From Verrucomicrobiales bacterium (GTDB taxonomy: Bacteria; Verrucomicrobiota; Verrucomicrobiia; Limisphaerales; UBA1100), in assembly GCA_005809105.1 (NCBI GenBank), contig SYLI01000020.1, forward strand, positions 1 to 60,936: a stretch of DNA of 60,936 nucleotides, written 5' to 3'. The notes under the pieces are model-generated. The model was not told the DNA's origin. It saw nothing but the letters and a program-made list of their open reading frames with translations, and did no database searches. Below, one piece after another: positions 3,271 through 36,001 of this stretch (the first letter of the stretch is position 1; every line of letters begins with the position of its first letter). Position numbers and translations under genes: made by a program.

Positions 3271-5349
3271 CTAACGCCCCCGGGCGCGATCCAGCGCGTC
3301 CAGCACGATGCCCGGGGTGAGCACCTCCGGCAGCGCCACCGGCGGCGACACGCCGTCGGCGGAATACACTAGCACCAGCGGCACGCCCGCGCGGTGGTGT
3401 CGCGCCAGCTCCTCGCGAATGGCGTCGCTCTTGCGATCGGTGAAGTCGGCCTTGAAGAGCGCCGCGCCCACCGACGCGAGCTTGCGACGCACGCGATCCA
3501 CCTCGATGCTCGTGCGCTTGTTCACCTTGCAGGTCAGGCACCAGTCGGCCGTGAAATCCACCAGCACCGGCCGCCTTTGCGCCCGCGCAGCCGCCACGGC
3601 CTCGGGGCTCCACGGCTTCCACTCCAGCCGGTCCTGAAAGACCACTAGGCAACCCGCGCCCAGCCCCAGCAACGCCAGGCACAGCACCGCGGCAAATCCA
3701 CGATGCCGTTGCCCGCGCTGGATGAACTCTCCGTACACCCATGCCGTCAATGCTAGCACCACCGTCATCAGGCCCAGCCGCAGTGTGCCGTTGTCAAAGT
3801 GAGGTGCCAGCAGAGTGAGCAGCCACACCGCCGCCGCGAGCATCGGGAAACCCATCGCCTGCTTGCACTGTTCCATCCACGGCCCGGGCGCGGGAAGCAG
3901 GCGCAGCCAGCGCGGTTGGAAACTCAAGAGCAGGTACGGCAGCGCCAGCCCAGCCGCCACGGCACTGAAGAAGGCCACCACCACCCAGGGCGGTTGCACG
4001 AACGCGACGCCCGCCGCCGCCGCCAGTCCCGGCGCGGTACAGGGCGTGGCCAGCGCCGTGGCCAGCATGCCGTTAAAGAATGAGCCGGCGTAGCCTTCGC
4101 GCCCCGCCAGGTCTCCCGCCCGGTTCATGGCGCCGGCACCCAGCATCACCTCGAAGACGCCAAAGAGATTGAGCGCCACCAGCGTCATCACCACCAGCAT
4201 CACCAGCAGAAACCCCGGATGCTGCATCTGCATCCCCCACGCGCCGCCACCCGCCTGGCGGGCGCCCAGCACCACGCCCGCCAGCACCAGCAGCGAAAAC
4301 CACACTCCCAGCGAATAGACCACACCATGTCTGCGAACGCGCGCAGGATCCTTTGTGCTCTGCTCGACAAATCCCAGGATCTTGAGCGAGATCACCGGCA
4401 GCACGCAGGGCATGATGTTGAGCAGCAGTCCTCCCAAAAACGCGCCTGCCACCATCATCAGCAGGGCGGCACCGCCCAGTACGGGGGCGGCCACTTTGTT
4501 GGAGTCGGCCGGCGGCGGCCCGACCTTCAACGCAACCTCCATGCCACGGGTCGCGTTGTCGGCCGCCTCCATTCGCACGACGCCGCCAAGGGTTTCGGGC
4601 CATGCCCCCGCGCGGACGCGCACGCGATGGGTGAAGGCGAAGGTGCCGTTGCCCAAGAGGCCATCGGCCGCAGGCTCCACCTCGAACTGTCCCGCAGCAT
4701 CAAGATACGGGAAGAAGGCTGCCTTGGAATCGGCGGCGAGCGCCGGAACGCGAAAGGTCAGCGGACGGCGACTGTCCTTTTCGGGGCCCGACCACCATGC
4801 GGCCAGCGGCGCGGCCGCAGGCTTTGGCCAAGTGCGCCTCGTGCGCTCAAAAAGCGGCGCATCCGCCGTGGCGGCCGTTGCACCTCCAACCTCAAGCGTT
4901 GCCTGCACCGACACTGTGCCAGGCACGCAGGTTTCGTGGCATTCCAGCCAGTCCACCTTGGCGCGAAGCGAGAGCGGCCCGAGCGGCACCCCTGCCGAAA
5001 CGGTCAGCGGCACCATCAGCATCACCTCGCGGTGGTACACATAGGTGGTGAGTTCCATCCAGGTGAGTTTCTCGGGCACCGGCCAGCGGATATCGCCGGC
5101 ACGGACGCCTGCGGGGAGTTGCCACTCGATCTTGGGCGCTTCGCCCGACTCGCCGTGGTTGCGCCAATAGATGTGCCAGTGGTTTGGAATGGTGAAGTGG
5201 ATGCCAGCCCACACGGTCTCGCTGGGCTTGGTGCCATTCTGCTCGAGCATGAGCCGCACCTGACTGCGGGCCGTAAGCGTGCTGAACACCTCCTGCGCCG
5301 GGGCGAGAAGCGGAAGCCACACTGCAAGCCAGCCAAGAATGCGTCGCAT
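3271..5349 (-). CDS. dsbD: Thiol:disulfide interchange protein DsbD-like, membrane
   Basis: 692 residues. A signal peptide (MRRILGWLAVWLPLLAPAQ) leads into a periplasmic alpha-like domain with CHETC, then about eight membrane segments with the transmembrane cysteine motifs MPCVLP and TPCTAP, and a C-terminal thioredoxin domain with WCLTCK near residue 603. This is the full DsbD electron-relay layout that moves reducing power from cytoplasmic thioredoxin to the periplasm. The frame stays open to 5916, but the upstream part covers the divergent iscA gene, so I chose ATG 5349, which gives a clean signal peptide. It could supply reductant to the lipid-anchored selenoprotein at 34 kb; that link is inference. 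Confidence 0.9.
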   Translation of the reverse strand: MRRILGWLAVWLPLLAPAQEVFSTLTARSQVRLMLEQNGTKPSETVWAGIHFTIPNHWHIYWRNHGESGEAPKIEWQLPAGVRAGDIRWPVPEKLTWMELTTYVYHREVMLMVPLTVSAGVPLGPLSLRAKVDWLECHETCVPGTVSVQATLEVGGATAATADAPLFERTRRTWPKPAAAPLAAWWSGPEKDSRRPLTFRVPALAADSKAAFFPYLDAAGQFEVEPAADGLLGNGTFAFTHRVRVRAGAWPETLGGVVRMEAADNATRGMEVALKVGPPPADSNKVAAPVLGGAALLMMVAGAFLGGLLLNIMPCVLPVISLKILGFVEQSTKDPARVRRHGVVYSLGVWFSLLVLAGVVLGARQAGGGAWGMQMQHPGFLLVMLVVMTLVALNLFGVFEVMLGAGAMNRAGDLAGREGYAGSFFNGMLATALATPCTAPGLAAAAGVAFVQPPWVVVAFFSAVAAGLALPYLLLSFQPRWLRLLPAPGPWMEQCKQAMGFPMLAAAVWLLTLLAPHFDNGTLRLGLMTVVLALTAWVYGEFIQRGQRHRGFAAVLCLALLGLGAGCLVVFQDRLEWKPWSPEAVAAARAQRRPVLVDFTADWCLTCKVNKRTSIEVDRVRRKLASVGAALFKADFTDRKSDAIREELARHHRAGVPLVLVYSADGVSPPVALPEVLTPGIVLDALDRARGR

Positions 5350-5439
5350 TGGCAGTGATGTTGCCAGAACCCCAAAGCCAGTAAAACGCCAAACTTGCAG
5401 GGGGTTGCCACGAGGCGGCTTGCGCCGTAGAGTCTTTCC

Positions 5440-5829
5440 ATGCTGGCCGATAAAATGGTGCCGAAGAACCTTGTGGCTGCGGGATTCCGCGTGGGCGACG
5501 AGCGCCTCGTGCGCCTCACAGCGCAGGCGGCCACGAAGGTTGCGGCGCTGCTGCAGCGGCAGGGCCGGCCACAAGGAGTGCTGCGCGTCGCGGTGATGGG
5601 CGGAGGGTGCAGCGGGTTGCAATACAAGATGGACCTTCAGGATGGGCCGGCGAACCGCGACATCCTGGTGGAAAGCGCGGGCGTGCGCGTGGTGGTTGAC
5701 CCCAAGAGTGCCCTTTACGTCACCGGCAGCGAGCTTGACTACAGCGACCAGCTCGAAAGTGCGGGCTTCAAGGTTCACAACCCCAATGCGGCCACCACCT
5801 GCAGCTGCGGCGAGAGCTTCAGCGCCTAA
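5440..5829 (+). CDS. iscA: Iron-sulfur cluster assembly protein, IscA/ErpA family
   Basis: 129 residues of the A-type carrier family that delivers Fe-S clusters to apoproteins. The three ligand cysteines are seen as GGGCSGLQY (mid-protein) and TCSCGESFS at the C-terminus. An N-terminal extension of about 20 residues (MLADKMVPKNLVAAG) is longer than usual; an internal ATG at 5455 is a possible later start. It is divergent from dsbD (90-nt gap) and lies 7 nt before the hscB-like gene, so the two are likely one operon. No iscS, iscU, hscA or fdx is next to it. Confidence 0.9.
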   Translation: MLADKMVPKNLVAAGFRVGDERLVRLTAQAATKVAALLQRQGRPQGVLRVAVMGGGCSGLQYKMDLQDGPANRDILVESAGVRVVVDPKSALYVTGSELDYSDQLESAGFKVHNPNAATTCSCGESFSA

Positions 5830-6517: not shown

Positions 6518-7741
6518 ATGCGTTTGATTCTCTCAGTTCTCACGGCCACGGCAGCTTTCCATGCATTTGCCGATGACTGGCCGACGTGGCGCGGCGTTAA
6601 TCGCGACGGCATCTCCAAGGAGGTGGGACTGCTCAAGCAATGGCCTGCTGATGGTCCCAATCTGGCATGGAAGGCAACGGGAGCGGGTGTGGGTTTCTCC
6701 AGCGTCAGCGTCGTTGGCGGACGCGTCTTCACGATGGGTGATGGCGACGATGCCAGCTACGTGCTTTGTTACAGCGCGGCGGATGGCAAGCCGGTGTGGA
6801 AGTCGCAGCCCGTCGGCAAGACAGGGGGCAGTTACAAGGGCACGCGATGCACGCCCACTGTGGATGGTGAGCTCGTGTACGCTCTTGGACAGTTTGGCGA
6901 CTTTGTCTGTTTGCGCGCGGCCGATGGCCGGGAAGTCTGGCGCAAGAGCCTTCAGAAGGACTTTGGCGGCAACTATTCGGGCTGGCAATACACCGAGTCG
7001 CCGCTGATCGATGGCGAGAAGGTGGTGTTCACCCCCGGTGGTCCGCGGGGCACGATCGTGGCGCTCAACAAGAAAACCGGCGCCCTGGTCTGGCAAAGCA
7101 AGGAATATAAGGATGGCGCGCACTACGCGTCCTTGATCGCGGTGAATCACGGGGGGCGCAGGCAGTACGTTCAGCTCACCGCACAGAGCGTCGCGGGAGT
7201 GGATGCAGAGACGGGCAACCTGCTCTGGCGGGCGGCGCGGCAGGGACAGACGGCCGTCATCCCCACTCCCATCTTCAGCAACGGGCATGTGTATGTCACC
7301 AGCGGCTACGGGGTCGGCTGCAATCTCTTCAAGGTCAGTGCCGAGAGTGCCACGTTCACCACCGAGCCCGTGTACAAGAACAAGGAGATGACCAACCATC
7401 ACGGCGGCGTCATCCTGTTGGGCGACCACCTTTACGGCTACTCCGATGGGCGCGGCTGGGTGTGCCAGGACTTCAAGTCGGGCGAACAGGTGTGGGCCAA
7501 CCCCGGCGTGGGTAAGGGTGCCATCGCCTATGCCGACGGCCATTTCTACTGCCGCAGCGAGGGCCGCGAAGGCAAGGTTGGGCTGATCGAAGCGACCTCC
7601 AAGGGGTACGTGGAGAAAGGCGGCTTCAAGCAGCCCGAGCGTTCGAAGGAGAGTGCATGGGCGCACCCGGTCATTGCCAACGGCAGGCTCTACCTGCGCG
7701 ACCAGGACATCCTGCTCTGCTACGACATCAAGGCGAAGTAG
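6518..7741 (+). CDS. Secreted PQQ-like beta-propeller repeat protein
   Basis: 407 residues. It has a signal peptide (MRLILSVLTATAAFHAFA) followed by DDWPTWRGVNRDGIS, the standard start of the quinoprotein-like propeller proteins that are abundant in Verrucomicrobiota and Planctomycetota. Repeats such as AADGKPVWKS, AADGREVWRK and KKTGALVWQS mark the beta-propeller blades. The start is decided by the ribosome site AGAAGGA at 6504-6510, which is 7 nt before ATG 6518 but only 1 nt before ATG 6512. No heme motif or membrane anchor is visible; substrate unknown, perhaps an outer/periplasmic dehydrogenase-like or binding protein. Its 3' end overlaps the convergent lipoprotein gene by 14 nt. Confidence 0.88.
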   Translation: MRLILSVLTATAAFHAFADDWPTWRGVNRDGISKEVGLLKQWPADGPNLAWKATGAGVGFSSVSVVGGRVFTMGDGDDASYVLCYSAADGKPVWKSQPVGKTGGSYKGTRCTPTVDGELVYALGQFGDFVCLRAADGREVWRKSLQKDFGGNYSGWQYTESPLIDGEKVVFTPGGPRGTIVALNKKTGALVWQSKEYKDGAHYASLIAVNHGGRRQYVQLTAQSVAGVDAETGNLLWRAARQGQTAVIPTPIFSNGHVYVTSGYGVGCNLFKVSAESATFTTEPVYKNKEMTNHHGGVILLGDHLYGYSDGRGWVCQDFKSGEQVWANPGVGKGAIAYADGHFYCRSEGREGKVGLIEATSKGYVEKGGFKQPERSKESAWAHPVIANGRLYLRDQDILLCYDIKAK

Positions 7742-8252
7742 GGGAACCGAGTTTTTCCTCGGGAGGGGCAACCGGCCCCCTGCCCTTGCGGAAGAAGGTT
7801 GCCCAGTATTCGAAGTAGTCGACCTCTTCGGTGGCTTCGTAGGGGATCTCGATCCCCTCCACCCTGCGGTATTTGCCATCCCTGTCGGTGATTCGCACAT
7901 TGTGCAGGCGGTGATACCGGGTGACACGGCGCGTGTGCGTCCCGTCAAACCGGCGGGAACTGAGCACCACATCGGAGCCGATTTTTCTCGCGAAGTCTTC
8001 AAGATCCCCTCTTACGGAAGTCTCCGTGACAAATCGGGACTGGCCAAGGCGCGTGGCGTTTTGATCCTGCGCCGCCGCCCTTGCGCTGTGATTCTCGAAA
8101 GGCACAGAGATGACTTGAACAGGCATCGAAGGGCTGCCCGTGCGGAGGTCGGAAGTGGGAACGTCCGGCTCGAAATGCTTTTCGTAGAGATTGACGCATC
8201 CCGTGCCGGCCAACGCCAACACGCCCATCCATGCGGCCAGGATGATTCTCAT
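7728..8252 (-). CDS. Putative lipoprotein of unknown function
   Basis: 174 residues. The N-terminus has a lipoprotein signal peptide with lipobox LAGTGC at residues 14-19 (Cys19 as anchor). The rest is hydrophilic, with a basic region rich in Arg and Tyr (RRVTRYHRLHNVRITDRDGKYRR); no known domain is recognised. It follows the UvrD-type helicase by 45 nt on the same strand and runs convergently into the propeller gene, overlapping it by 14 nt, so its transcription must stop within or beyond that gene. A role at the cell surface is inference. Confidence 0.72.
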   Translation of the reverse strand: MRIILAAWMGVLALAGTGCVNLYEKHFEPDVPTSDLRTGSPSMPVQVISVPFENHSARAAAQDQNATRLGQSRFVTETSVRGDLEDFARKIGSDVVLSSRRFDGTHTRRVTRYHRLHNVRITDRDGKYRRVEGIEIPYEATEEVDYFEYWATFFRKGRGPVAPPEEKLGSPTSP

Positions 8253-32059: not shown

Positions 32060-33439
32060 TCAGGCCCCGCGCAATTCGGCGATGGGCTGGCCCCTCGGCA
32101 GAATCGGGACGGGACGGCCTTGAAAATCGGGAAGGGCCACGTGCCCCGCGTCAATCCCCAGGTGCCGGTAAATCGTGGCAAGAAAGTCGCCCGGTTCCAC
32201 GCGGCGCTCGGCCACCTGCTCACCGCGTGCGTCGGACGCGCCGATGATGCCGCCGGTCTGGATGCCGCCGCCGGACCAGAGATTGGTGAAGGCGCTGGGC
32301 CAGTGGTCGCGCCCGGGCTGCACCACGCCCTCGGGCGCGCTGGCCACGCCGCCGCCGCTGCTGGCCACGCGCGTGATGCGCGGCGTGCGCCCGAACTCGC
32401 CGGACACCACCACGAGCACACGCCGGTCAAGGCCGCGCTGATACACATCCTCGATGAGGGCGCTGACGGCCTGGTCCACGACGGGCATGCGAAACTTGAG
32501 CGCGTCAAAAATATGGTGGTTCACCGCATGATCGTCCCAGTTGGCCACGCGCCCGCAGAGCGGGCCGTCGAGCACGCTGGTGACAATGTCCACGCCCGCC
32601 TCCACCAGTCGCCGTGCGAGCAGCAGCTGCTGCCCCCATCGGTTGCGCCCGTAGCGGTCGCGCAACGCGGCCGGTTCACCGCCAAGATCAAACGCCCGCC
32701 GCGCCTCCGGACGCGTCAGCAGATGCAGGGCCTGCGCCTCGAATTGGTCCAGCGTCCGCATCGCGCCGGCGCCATCCACGGCGCGGTCCAGCCGGTCGAG
32801 CTTGGTCTTGAGATCCACCCGTCCCTCCAGCCGGCGCGCTTGGGCATCGTCACCCAGCCCGATGTTGGGCACCTCGAAGTCCGGCGTATTCGGATCGCCG
32901 TGCACGAGAAATGGCCCGTGGCCTTCGCCCACATAAGCGGCACCCGCGATGCCAAATCCGTCGTATTGCGTCACGCCATTCACGCCAATGTAATTGGGAA
33001 GCGCGGGGGCGGGCTGGCGGCGCAGGAGGTTGGCCACCGTCATCCAATCGGGAAAAACCGGCTTGCGCTTGTCCTGAGGGTCGATGTCGCCGGTCAGCAT
33101 CTGCAGCGAGCCGGCCGGGTGACCACCGCCGGTGTGCGTCATTGATCGAACCAAAGTGAATTTGTCGGCCACACGGGCCAGACCCGGCAGCAATTCGGTC
33201 AGCTGCAATCCCGGCACCCGGGTGCTGATGGCGCGGAATGGACTGCGAAATTCGCTGGGTGCATCGGGCTTGGGGTCGAAGGTGTCCAGGTGCGAGCAGC
33301 CGCCGCGCAGCCACACGAGAATGACGGCAGTGCGGGCGGCAGCGCCGGACCCGGAGGCCGCGCGCAGCCGCAGTGCATCCGGCAGTGAAAGGCCTGCAAA
33401 GCCTCCCAGTCCCACGCGCATGAATTCGCGCCGTCTCAT
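32060..33439 (-). CDS. DUF1501 family protein with Tat signal
   Basis: 459 residues. MRRREFMRVGLGGFAGLSL is a twin-arginine-type export signal, followed by TAVILVWLRGGCSHLDTFDP and VVVSGEFGRTPRI, the DUF1501 signature (a sulfatase/phosphatase-like fold that is common and expanded in this phylum). Start ATG 33439 overlaps the deiodinase-like gene stop by 4 nt. No known substrate. Export and membership of this overlap-linked operon suggest that it works on the same periplasmic material as its neighbours. Confidence 0.88.
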   Translation of the reverse strand: MRRREFMRVGLGGFAGLSLPDALRLRAASGSGAAARTAVILVWLRGGCSHLDTFDPKPDAPSEFRSPFRAISTRVPGLQLTELLPGLARVADKFTLVRSMTHTGGGHPAGSLQMLTGDIDPQDKRKPVFPDWMTVANLLRRQPAPALPNYIGVNGVTQYDGFGIAGAAYVGEGHGPFLVHGDPNTPDFEVPNIGLGDDAQARRLEGRVDLKTKLDRLDRAVDGAGAMRTLDQFEAQALHLLTRPEARRAFDLGGEPAALRDRYGRNRWGQQLLLARRLVEAGVDIVTSVLDGPLCGRVANWDDHAVNHHIFDALKFRMPVVDQAVSALIEDVYQRGLDRRVLVVVSGEFGRTPRITRVASSGGGVASAPEGVVQPGRDHWPSAFTNLWSGGGIQTGGIIGASDARGEQVAERRVEPGDFLATIYRHLGIDAGHVALPDFQGRPVPILPRGQPIAELRGA

Positions 33440-34068
33440 GGTTTTGGTGAAAAGGTCTCCAGCCACTCGCGCGCCGCGCGGATTCCCTCAGGGAACCCAC
33501 GTGGCCCGGGCGCGGCTTTGACCACGATGCGCCCGTCAACATTCACGACATACACGCGGTCGGGCCAGGCGGCGTACTGGCGATTCACCACGTTATCCAT
33601 GCCATCCACGAGTGCGGGCAGGGTGAGTTTCAATGCCGAACAGGCCTGCGCCGCCACCTTCACGCGCTCACCATAGGTGCGGGGATCGCGAATTTCAATG
33701 CCGGCACGGTCGTTCAACCCCATGCGCCAGCCATCGGTGGGATGCGCCTCCCGGATGTACACCAAGAAGAACGCCGCGCGGTGTCCATGCTCGCGGTACA
33801 TGCTTTCAAGGGCGCCAACCTGGGCCCGGAAAGGCGGTCACGTGTAGCTGCCAAACACCAGTACCACGGGGCGATCGCCCTTGAACTGTGAAAGTCGCAC
33901 GGTGCGGCCACCATCAAGCGGCCTGAGCGCGAAGTCGGGCGCGGCATCGCCCACGAAAAGCCGGTCCGGTTCTCGGAGAGGCGCAGTGGATTGAGACTGT
34001 GAAGGGGTCGCACAGGCCGCCAGAAGCGCCGTCGCTCCCGCCAGCAGCATGGCGATGGCGCGCGTCAT
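33436..34068 (-). CDS. Iodothyronine deiodinase-like lipoprotein with in-frame UGA (candidate selenocysteine)
   Basis: Read through an in-frame UGA at 33838-33840 it gives 210 residues. A lipoprotein signal with LAAC (Cys19) is followed by a thioredoxin-like domain: VGDAAPDFALRPLDGG, PVVLVFGSYT-Sec77-PPFRAQVG, then VYIREAHPTDGW with the deiodinase Glu-His pair, and a C-terminal region (DRVYVVNVDGRIV, GPRGFPEG) like the family. Sec/Cys is expected at exactly this place. Upstream and downstream frames both end in correct ATGA overlaps with the neighbours, so it is one gene, not a frameshift. A SECIS-like hairpin follows the UGA. Family members cleave carbon-halogen bonds or act as peroxiredoxin-like redox enzymes; the actual substrate here is unknown. 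No selA/B/C/D seen in the window. Confidence 0.88.
33803..33833 (-). promoter_or_regulatory. Bacterial SECIS-like hairpin after the UGA
   Basis: After the UGA (33840-33838) the RNA can pair CUUUC (33833-33829) with GAAAG (33807-33803) and GGGC plus CC with GG, a bulged C, and GCCC in the upper stem, leaving the apical loop AGGUU at 33821-33817. The loop begins 16 nt after the UGA and has a G in its first two bases, within the range reported for bacterial SECIS elements, and resembles the AGGUCU loop of E. coli fdhF. It lies in the coding sequence, as bacterial SECIS elements do. Confidence 0.72.
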
Positions 34069-35435
34069 GCCAGTCTCCACGGCGCGCGACTCGGGCGGTT
34101 GAGCATCCACTGCGCGGCGGGATTGCCCAGCACCTGCTCCCGCGCAGGATCCCACCGCAAGTCCTGCCTGAGCAACATGGCGATGTTGCCCAGATGGGCA
34201 ACGGTGATGGACCGGTGGGCCTGCTCGCATGGCGCCACGCACTCTTTGCGGGAGCGGACGCAGTCGATGAAATTGCGGAAGTGATTCTCGCTAGCTTCAA
34301 GACGCACGTCCTTTTCGCCGAAGGTTTCGGTGAGCAGCACCTTGGGTTCGGCCTCGATGCCGCCGCGCCGAACAAAGACCCAGCCCTCAGTCCCTTCAAA
34401 TCGCACGCCGTTGGGAAATTTGTCGGACACCACCATCACGGCGCCGTTGGCATACACGGCCTCGAAATGAAACTCCGTCGCGGTGTTCCACAATTCGTCG
34501 GGAGGAAACACGCCCTTCGCATTGCGGATCTCCACGGGACCGGTGTGCTCCATTCCCATGCCCCATTGAGCGATGTCGGGATGGTGCCCGCCCCAGTCGG
34601 TGACTTGTCCGCCCGAATAGTCGTAGATCCAGCGGAAGTTCACGTGGCAGCGCGCCGGCGCGTAGGGCGCCTCGGGCGCCGGCCCCAACCAGAGGTTGTA
34701 ATTGAATCCCTCGGGTACGGGCTCAGCCTTCTTGCGGTCGCCCGTCTTGCCAAAGTCCGGCCGGCCGGGCGGCAGGCCCACCTTCACGGTGTTCACCTTG
34801 CCGATGCGCCCGTTGCGCACCAGTTCGCAGGCGTGGCGGAAATTGCGGTCTGAGCGCTGCTGGCTGCCGGTCTGGAACACCCGCTGGGCGCGCTTGACCG
34901 CGTCACTCATGAGCCGCCCCTCGCTCACCGTCAGCGACAGGGGTTTCTGGCAGTAGATGTCCTTGCCCGCAGCGGCCGCCGCCACCGTCAGAAACGCGTG
35001 CCAATGGTCGGGGGTGGCGATTTCAACGGCGTCCACTCCCTTGTCGGCCAGCACCTCGCGGAAATCCTCGCGCGCGGCGCAACCCCGAAATTCTCCCTTG
35101 GCGCGCTGCTGGGTGTAAAACTTGTCCACCAGCTTGCGCGCAGGCTCGCGGCCGCGCACCGTACCATTCCAATAGCCGGGGCCTTCGCGGTTCACGTCGC
35201 ACACGGCCACCACCTGCACGCGCTCGTCCTTGAGAAACTGTTGCAAGTCACCCGTGCCCTGATTGCCCACGCCGATGAACGCCATCGCCACCCGGTTGCT
35301 GGGCGCCACATGGCCGCCACGCCCCAGCACCGAAGAGGGCACGATGAGTGGTGCCGCGGCGAAGCCCACGGCGCGCCTCAAAAACTTGCGACGGGCGATG
35401 CCCGGGCTTTGGGAGGTTGGGTTGGGTGAATTCAT
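34065..35435 (-). CDS. Gfo/Idh/MocA oxidoreductase with Tat signal
   Basis: 456 residues. A twin-arginine signal (ARRKFLRRAVGFAAAPLIVP) precedes a Rossmann domain (FIGVGNQGTGDLQQF) with VEIATPDHWH and CQKPLSLTVSEG (catalytic Lys in QKP), then the C-terminal domain with DWGGHHPDIAQWGMG. This is the exported Gfo/Idh/MocA subtype with cofactor bound before export. ATG 35435 gives the Tat leader. It overlaps the MORN gene and the deiodinase-like gene by 4 nt each. Substrate unknown, likely a sugar or polyol derivative. Confidence 0.9.
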   Translation of the reverse strand: MNSPNPTSQSPGIARRKFLRRAVGFAAAPLIVPSSVLGRGGHVAPSNRVAMAFIGVGNQGTGDLQQFLKDERVQVVAVCDVNREGPGYWNGTVRGREPARKLVDKFYTQQRAKGEFRGCAAREDFREVLADKGVDAVEIATPDHWHAFLTVAAAAAGKDIYCQKPLSLTVSEGRLMSDAVKRAQRVFQTGSQQRSDRNFRHACELVRNGRIGKVNTVKVGLPPGRPDFGKTGDRKKAEPVPEGFNYNLWLGPAPEAPYAPARCHVNFRWIYDYSGGQVTDWGGHHPDIAQWGMGMEHTGPVEIRNAKGVFPPDELWNTATEFHFEAVYANGAVMVVSDKFPNGVRFEGTEGWVFVRRGGIEAEPKVLLTETFGEKDVRLEASENHFRNFIDCVRSRKECVAPCEQAHRSITVAHLGNIAMLLRQDLRWDPAREQVLGNPAAQWMLNRPSRAPWRLA

Positions 35436-36001
35436 CGTGCACCGCCGTTGGGTTTCCAGTGATTCAAAACCTTCTGCTCGCCATTGGACGACCACTCGCG
35501 GTGGCGCATTTCCGTCCCTTGCTTGAACTTTCGCTCGCTGCGAAGGCTGCCGTCCTCATACCACGTCGTGTACAGCCCGTGCAGATGGTCGTCCTTGAAC
35601 ACCGCCTCGGATCGTTTCCGGCCATCGGGATAGTACACCGCGTGCGGGCCGTGGCGCAGCCCCTTCCGGTATTGCACCTCGATCTGGAGTCGCCCGTCCT
35701 CATACCACACGCAGTGCGCACCGTGGCGCACGCCGCGCCGGTAGGTCACGACCGAATGCTTCTGCCCGCCCGGATGCCACCAGGTCTCCTCGCCGTGAAG
35801 CTGGCCCGAGCGAAAGCGGCCCTCGAGGGACTTGCTTCCGTCTGGAAAAAACTCCGTCGCCGTCCCGTTGAAGGGCTTCGATTGTCCCTGAACATAGGCC
35901 AGAGCGCCGTCTTGATACTGGGGAAATCGCCCGCCTGCCGCATCGCGCCACTCGATCTGCGAGTAACGCACGGCACTGGATCTCGCGTGAGCGGCTGTCA
36001 T
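35432..36001 (-). CDS. MORN-type repeat protein (toxin-antitoxin YwqK-like family)
   Basis: 189 residues with about six copies of a G-x-(H)G-x3-Y-x-DG-type repeat, such as RSGQLHGEETWWHPGG, YRRGVRHGAHCVWYEDG and YRKGLRHGPHAVYYPDG. MORN_2-type repeats form a beta-hairpin sheet; some relatives are listed as antitoxins, but there is no toxin beside it. No signal peptide is clear. The gene is the first of the overlap-linked operon leading to Gfo/Idh/MocA, the selenoprotein and DUF1501. Its role is unknown. Confidence 0.8.
   Translation of the reverse strand: MTAAHARSSAVRYSQIEWRDAAGGRFPQYQDGALAYVQGQSKPFNGTATEFFPDGSKSLEGRFRSGQLHGEETWWHPGGQKHSVVTYRRGVRHGAHCVWYEDGRLQIEVQYRKGLRHGPHAVYYPDGRKRSEAVFKDDHLHGLYTTWYEDGSLRSERKFKQGTEMRHREWSSNGEQKVLNHWKPNGGAR

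Follow-up and report, generated by a model that had tools for sequence, protein, structure and literature searches.

A gene on the minus strand at 33436..34068 of the window (the whole stretch of DNA analysed, 60,936 nt from a Verrucomicrobiales bacterium) encodes a deiodinase-like protein whose reading frame is interrupted by a single in-frame UGA. On the basis of sequence comparison, we hold with high confidence the joint claim that this UGA, at codon 77, is decoded as selenocysteine and that the product belongs to the T4_deiodinase (PF00837) family. The product is very probably a selenoenzyme of this family with a thioredoxin fold, predicted to be lipid-anchored and extracytoplasmic. A standard ORF caller would divide the gene at the TGA, and automatic annotation would cut it in two and lose its active site. 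For work on the deiodinase active site, the family can serve as a compact bacterial model, and its natural Sec/Cys pairs provide a means to test why selenium is used, together with a clear covarying bacterial SECIS. The substrate, if found, would bear on the origin of the animal thyroid-hormone enzymes.

Gene Structure and Junctions

When the window is read with TGA as U, the frame 34068..33436 (minus strand) comprises 210 codons, and its sole interruption is the TGA at codon 77 (33838..33840, minus strand), giving a protein of 210 aa with Sec77. The context of Sec77 is GSYT-U-PPF, with PVVLVFGSYT before U and PPFRAQVG after it, followed by VYIREAHPTDGW. The initial annotation had described a continuous deiodinase-like frame broken by this TGA without naming a strand; the description is borne out on the minus strand, and the translated plus strand of 33436-34068 shows nothing similar to a deiodinase-like protein. 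ATGA overlaps with both neighbours had also been described, and the coordinates agree. The start ATG (34068) shares ATGA with the stop of the upstream Gfo/Idh/MocA oxidoreductase gene, which ends at 34065, and the selenoprotein stop (33438..33436) shares ATGA with a possible start ATG of the downstream DUF1501 gene (33439). Because of these overlaps at both ends, the read-through frame fits the gene row, and neither half alone does.

When the window was scanned roughly by composition with TGA read through, three other places emerged as putative candidates, judged by composition only, at 1429 (plus), 38376 (plus), and 28083 (minus).

Selenocysteine and Cysteine Forms

The expectation that homologs carry Cys or Sec at residue 77 agrees with the alignment of 45 bacterial homologs from Verrucomicrobiota and Planctomycetota, collected with a motif requiring U or C at this column; 31 of them have TGA there and 14 have Cys. 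A profile search that did not impose the U/C requirement found exactly one TGA in 19 of the 23 matches above cut-off. A 72%-identical protein from a member of the same genus (G144) is the nearest relative and has the same TGA; its contig is present twice in the data set (also as L019) and was counted once. The TGA-bearing homologs come from three families within the order, from other families in the phylum, and from Planctomycetota, the last sampled with 20 loci. At least four changes are required on the tree to account for the exchange between Sec and Cys.

The presence of SelA follows the two forms. It was found in 16 of 17 TGA-form genomes of the order, the exception being a 50%-complete bin, and in none of the three Cys-form genomes, against a background of 91/293; the 17 cases come mostly from one family and are not independent. 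Neighbouring paralog pairs are also present on Planctomycetota contigs (L037:3686-4168 and 5001-5465; L022:3647-4108 and 5001-5471), and the L022 pair consists of one Sec form and one Cys form.

SECIS Hairpin

A bacterial-type SECIS hairpin lies at 33810..33827 (minus strand), as judged by folding, synonymous recodings, and covariation in Sec homologs. It consists of the 5′ arm GGGCCC (33827-33822), the loop AGGUU (33821-33817), and the 3′ arm GGCGCCC (33816-33810) with one bulged C. Counted from the U of UGA, nucleotides 14-19 form pairs with 25-30 (in this gene 25-31, owing to one bulge), and the small apical loop A20-G21-x-x-U24, at nucleotides 20-24, holds a G. The initial annotation had placed a hairpin with loop AGGUU 16 nt after the UGA. 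Its position is correct, the stem lying 10 nt and the loop 16 nt downstream; the gene's own hairpin (−10.4 kcal/mol) gives p = 0.20 against synonymous recodings and a z of −0.9 to −1.1 on single-sequence folding, and the signal comes from the family. Since single-sequence folding is indecisive, comparative tests were used.

All 15 Sec homologs of the same hairpin type pair in the identical register. The mean Z against synonymous recodings is −2.84 for the GP[FY]R Sec forms (n = 11) and −1.01 for the PPF Sec forms (n = 4), compared with −0.05 at the same place in the Cys forms (n = 14). Among 16 Sec sequences, the covariation score of the hairpin is 0.328 versus 0.153 for shuffles, none of 500 shuffles being as high; shifting the pairing partner by one column lowers the score, and three pairs are changed on both sides. 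Covariation at the hairpin place in 13 Cys homologs is nothing clearly above shuffles. Nothing supports a role of the hairpin in Sec insertion more strongly than this control, which uses the same protein family and the same place. The EF-hand-type relatives described below have a different hairpin slightly further downstream, with a weaker signal. An Rfam search for SECIS gave no match by gathering score or E-value, and the covarying SECIS of this clade may be a new detail.

Selenocysteine Machinery and the Reading of the UGA Codon

A search for selA, selB, selD, and tRNA-Sec, which the initial annotation had proposed, detected all four in a cluster. On one contig of the source genome the order is selC, selD, selA, a transglutaminase-like gene, and selB. 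The tRNA-Sec scores 67.5 bits and has the anticodon tca according to ARAGORN, SelB carries the SelB-wing_3 domain, and SelA and SelD are also present. The transglutaminase-like gene (PF01841, 80.7 bits; G000 contig C46, L018:7055-8014, minus strand), located between selA and selB, overlaps each of them by 4 nt. The Sec operon of planctomycete strain P2 has been reported to contain a transglut_core gene, a structure that its authors found in no other known genome (PMC4807772).

The TGA could be an ordinary nonsense codon, owing to a pseudogene or to a sequencing or assembly error, as might be suggested by an ORF that a standard caller would split and by a lone internal stop, the assembly being a draft in 106 contigs. 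This is highly improbable in view of the TGA at the same column in 31 homologs, the intact frame on both sides, and a covarying hairpin confined to the Sec forms; an error in sequencing is, by this comparison, very unlikely because other genomes share the TGA, including that of the 72%-identical protein from the same genus. A reassigned UGA in the source genome, read for example as Trp or Gly, would likewise keep the frame open. Its probability is lower still, since the selenoprotein gene and the gene upstream of it both end in TGA, within regular ATGA junctions, the residue alternates with Cys alone in homologs, and tRNA-Sec (tca) is present along with selA, selB, and selD. All three alternatives (a pseudogene, an error in sequencing, and a reassigned codon) were rejected on the conserved TGA, the TGA/Cys column, the hairpin covariation, and the normal TGA stops. 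The Sec reading proposed in the initial annotation is supported by comparison, and tests of selA/B/C/D, the homolog column, and the conserved TGA gave no refutation.

Family, Fold, and Active Site

Assignment to the deiodinase-like family, as first proposed from the sequence, is backed by Pfam, a PDB sequence search, and a fold search. The Pfam T4_deiodinase model matches residues 35-205 with 106 bits (curated cut-off 27), and the AhpC-TSA and Redoxin families are also above cut-off, ranked behind it. The NCBIfam model NF038285, 'deiodinase family protein', gives 201.7 bits, which is under its cut-off of 250; the match is restricted to 178-332 of a model 347 long, and all 35 aligned relatives match it too. 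By sequence, mouse DIO3 (E 1.5e-20) and mouse DIO2 (E 1.3e-19) rank first in the PDB. An AlphaFold2 model obtained with 35 aligned relatives (pLDDT 90.3, pTM 0.83) has mouse DIO2 and DIO3 as its top two PDB fold matches, followed by ResA-type redoxins.

The features of iodothyronine deiodinases are present, namely GSxT-U-PPF and the Tyr, Glu, His, and Trp of the substrate loop. Residues F72, G73, T76, U/C77, F100, Y104, E107, A108, H109, and R135 are invariant with mouse DIO2 and DIO3, and R171 is conserved wherever the alignment column is filled. The relatives that share the UPPF motif (the UPPF clade) keep Y104, E107, H109, P110, D112, G113, and W114 of the deiodinase-specific loop, of which W114, at the position of Dio2-Trp167, is lost in the EF-hand relatives. 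In animal deiodinases, a proton relay has been proposed that involves the Ser/Thr preceding Sec, a Tyr, a Glu, and two His, and the loop takes part in binding the substrate (PMC11592359, PMC9141512). The second relay His (DIO1 His174, Dio2 His182) is replaced here by Pro129, and it is retained in four relatives (L072_4908, L083, L037_3820, and L085).

A helix Cys at about 138-144 is found in 43 of the 45 bacterial sequences and corresponds here to Cys143. The loci L047 and L055, which are GSCTC-PPF Cys forms, are without the helix Cys and have instead Cys75, two residues before the catalytic residue. In human DIO1, a link between Cys124 and the catalytic residue has been demonstrated (Cys124-Sec126; PMC9141512), and the Cys of L047 and L055 resembles the arrangement of animal DIO1 and DIO3. 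This pattern of conservation suggests that every member may have a resolving thiol, at one or the other of the two positions.

In sister genera (L046, L049-L054, and L056-L060), the frames are longer, at about 310-375 aa, and have EF-hand-like repeats before the deiodinase domain. These EF-hand-type relatives carry the motif TUGPFS; Pfam EF-hand matches were checked in L080, which is the same gene as L049.

Gene Row and Predicted Membrane Anchoring

The translation begins with a putative signal peptide, MTRAIAMLLAGATALLAAC (34012..34068, minus strand), which includes a putative lipobox and a predicted lipid-modified Cys19. The lipobox LLAAC, read from the translation, comprises residues 15-19, and a lipobox-like stretch also occurs in the G144 and G242 relatives. 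The gene belongs to a conserved row on the minus strand whose first member encodes a MORN_2-repeat protein (35432..36001). It is followed by the upstream Gfo/Idh/MocA oxidoreductase gene (34065..35435), the selenoprotein gene, and the downstream DUF1501 gene (32060..33439). The row is kept in G144, of the same genus, and in G242, of another genus in the same family; it was not found in the other loci examined. Both large neighbours have a twin-arginine-like start, and the Pfam TAT_signal model matches the G144 oxidoreductase. From these starts the gene row looks extracytoplasmic, which agrees with the lipobox of the selenoprotein. Neither neighbour gene indicates a substrate.

On G242 contig 109, two tandem deiodinase-like selenoprotein genes (L072:2691-3230 and 3388-3909) lie between Gfo/Idh and DUF1501, one copy having the relay His (H129) and the other Pro. 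An EF-hand-type deiodinase-like gene is placed between two same-strand DUF1501 genes in G238 (L077, 1947-3302 and 5422-5910, with a DUF1501 match at 6840-8243), and thus the link with DUF1501 recurs outside the UPPF clade.

Proposed Mechanism and Substrate

Decoding of UGA77 by SelB and tRNA-Sec, directed by the hairpin just downstream, would yield the full-length protein of 210 aa. The selenolate of Sec could then attack an electrophilic atom of the substrate, either an aryl halogen or the oxygen of a peroxide, with the substrate possibly held beneath the EAHPTDGW loop as in animal deiodinases. The oxidised Sec might be re-reduced through a selenenyl-sulfide with the helix Cys143, as the conservation of this Cys suggests, and the last reduction step would be carried out by an outside thiol system. 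Much lower confidence is attached to the substrate and the resolving Cys than to Sec decoding and family membership.

A real selenoprotein could also work as a peroxiredoxin-like or ResA-like thiol or peroxide reductase without dehalogenase activity, and this is nearly an even prospect. AhpC-TSA and Redoxin above cut-off, the ResA structures as next-best folds, and the loss of the relay His are all consistent with such a role, and the authors of the Sargasso Sea study likewise proposed a redox role outside thyroid hormone metabolism (PMC1088965). On the other hand, the EAHPTDGW loop is conserved between this protein and DIO2 and DIO3, as are the Tyr, Glu, His, and Arg found throughout the family, and deiodinase structures outrank all redoxins in the fold search. 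Dehalogenation of a halogenated aromatic and reduction of the peroxide or thiol type appear roughly equally probable. Dehalogenation is slightly favoured, since the UPPF clade has kept every one of the loop residues specific to deiodinases.

In a tree without long-branched rows, animal DIO2 and DIO3 group with the UPPF clade on a branch supported at 97/84. Alternative placements are compatible with the data (p-AU 0.17 and 0.097), and a very long branch leads to the animals; the link between this clade and animals is treated as a lead. Their place on a common side of that branch, together with the shared GSxT-U-PPF and loop, is the basis for a further reading, which we consider rather unlikely, that the Verrucomicrobiota UPPF clade is the bacterial lineage nearest animal deiodinases and a true extracytoplasmic reductive dehalogenase, so that the chemistry of the animal enzyme would predate thyroid hormone.

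Comparison with Known Systems

Bacterial deiodinase-like selenoproteins have been described since 2005, when Sec and Cys forms with a bacterial SECIS were reported in Sargasso Sea data (PMC1088965). In the GOS analysis of 2008, 22 Sec deiodinase-like sequences were found, and its table gives no motif for the family (PMC2398784). Reviews of 2022 and 2026 include a deiodinase-like protein with the motif UxxC (PMC9312934, PMC13188914), and an NCBIfam model exists. The claim to novelty is accordingly weaker than the initial annotation had it, and the lipid-anchored form in an oxidoreductase/DUF1501 operon, which it saw as apparently undescribed, is new at most with respect to this clade, to the way the protein is anchored, and to the gene row. 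Searches of open-access papers found none that deals with this clade of Verrucomicrobiota. The animal-type UPPF active site and the helix Cys that possibly re-reduces Sec are details that may be new.

The present protein resembles the known bacterial deiodinase-like selenoproteins in its PF00837 domain, in the occurrence of Sec or Cys forms, and in its bacterial SECIS. It differs from the entry in the reviews in having UPPF without Cys at +3, a predicted lipid anchor, and the MORN-Gfo/Idh-DUF1501 row. The UxxC motif occurs in none of the aligned sequences, the other Sec relatives having UGP[FY]; as the 2008 table gives no motif, UxxC may not be defining for the bacterial family. With NF038285, the whole domain matches, although the score is below the cut-off.

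The thioredoxin fold, GSxT-U-PPF, the Y/E/H/P/D/G/W of the substrate loop, and the conserved Arg are shared with animal DIO1-3 (mouse DIO3, 4tr3; DIO2, 9h48). N-terminal membrane anchoring, which a transmembrane segment provides in the animal enzymes, is likewise predicted here, through a lipoprotein anchor. The differences are an identity of 31% in the fold alignment, Pro129 in place of the relay His, and Tyr75, with no proximal Cys; nor would the bacterial host be expected to contain thyroid hormone. The protein shares with ResA the thioredoxin fold and, by prediction, the character of an extracytoplasmic redox protein, and with peroxiredoxins the thioredoxin fold. Compared with both, the sequence match is confined to the N-terminal part, and EAHPTDGW constitutes a deiodinase-specific insertion.
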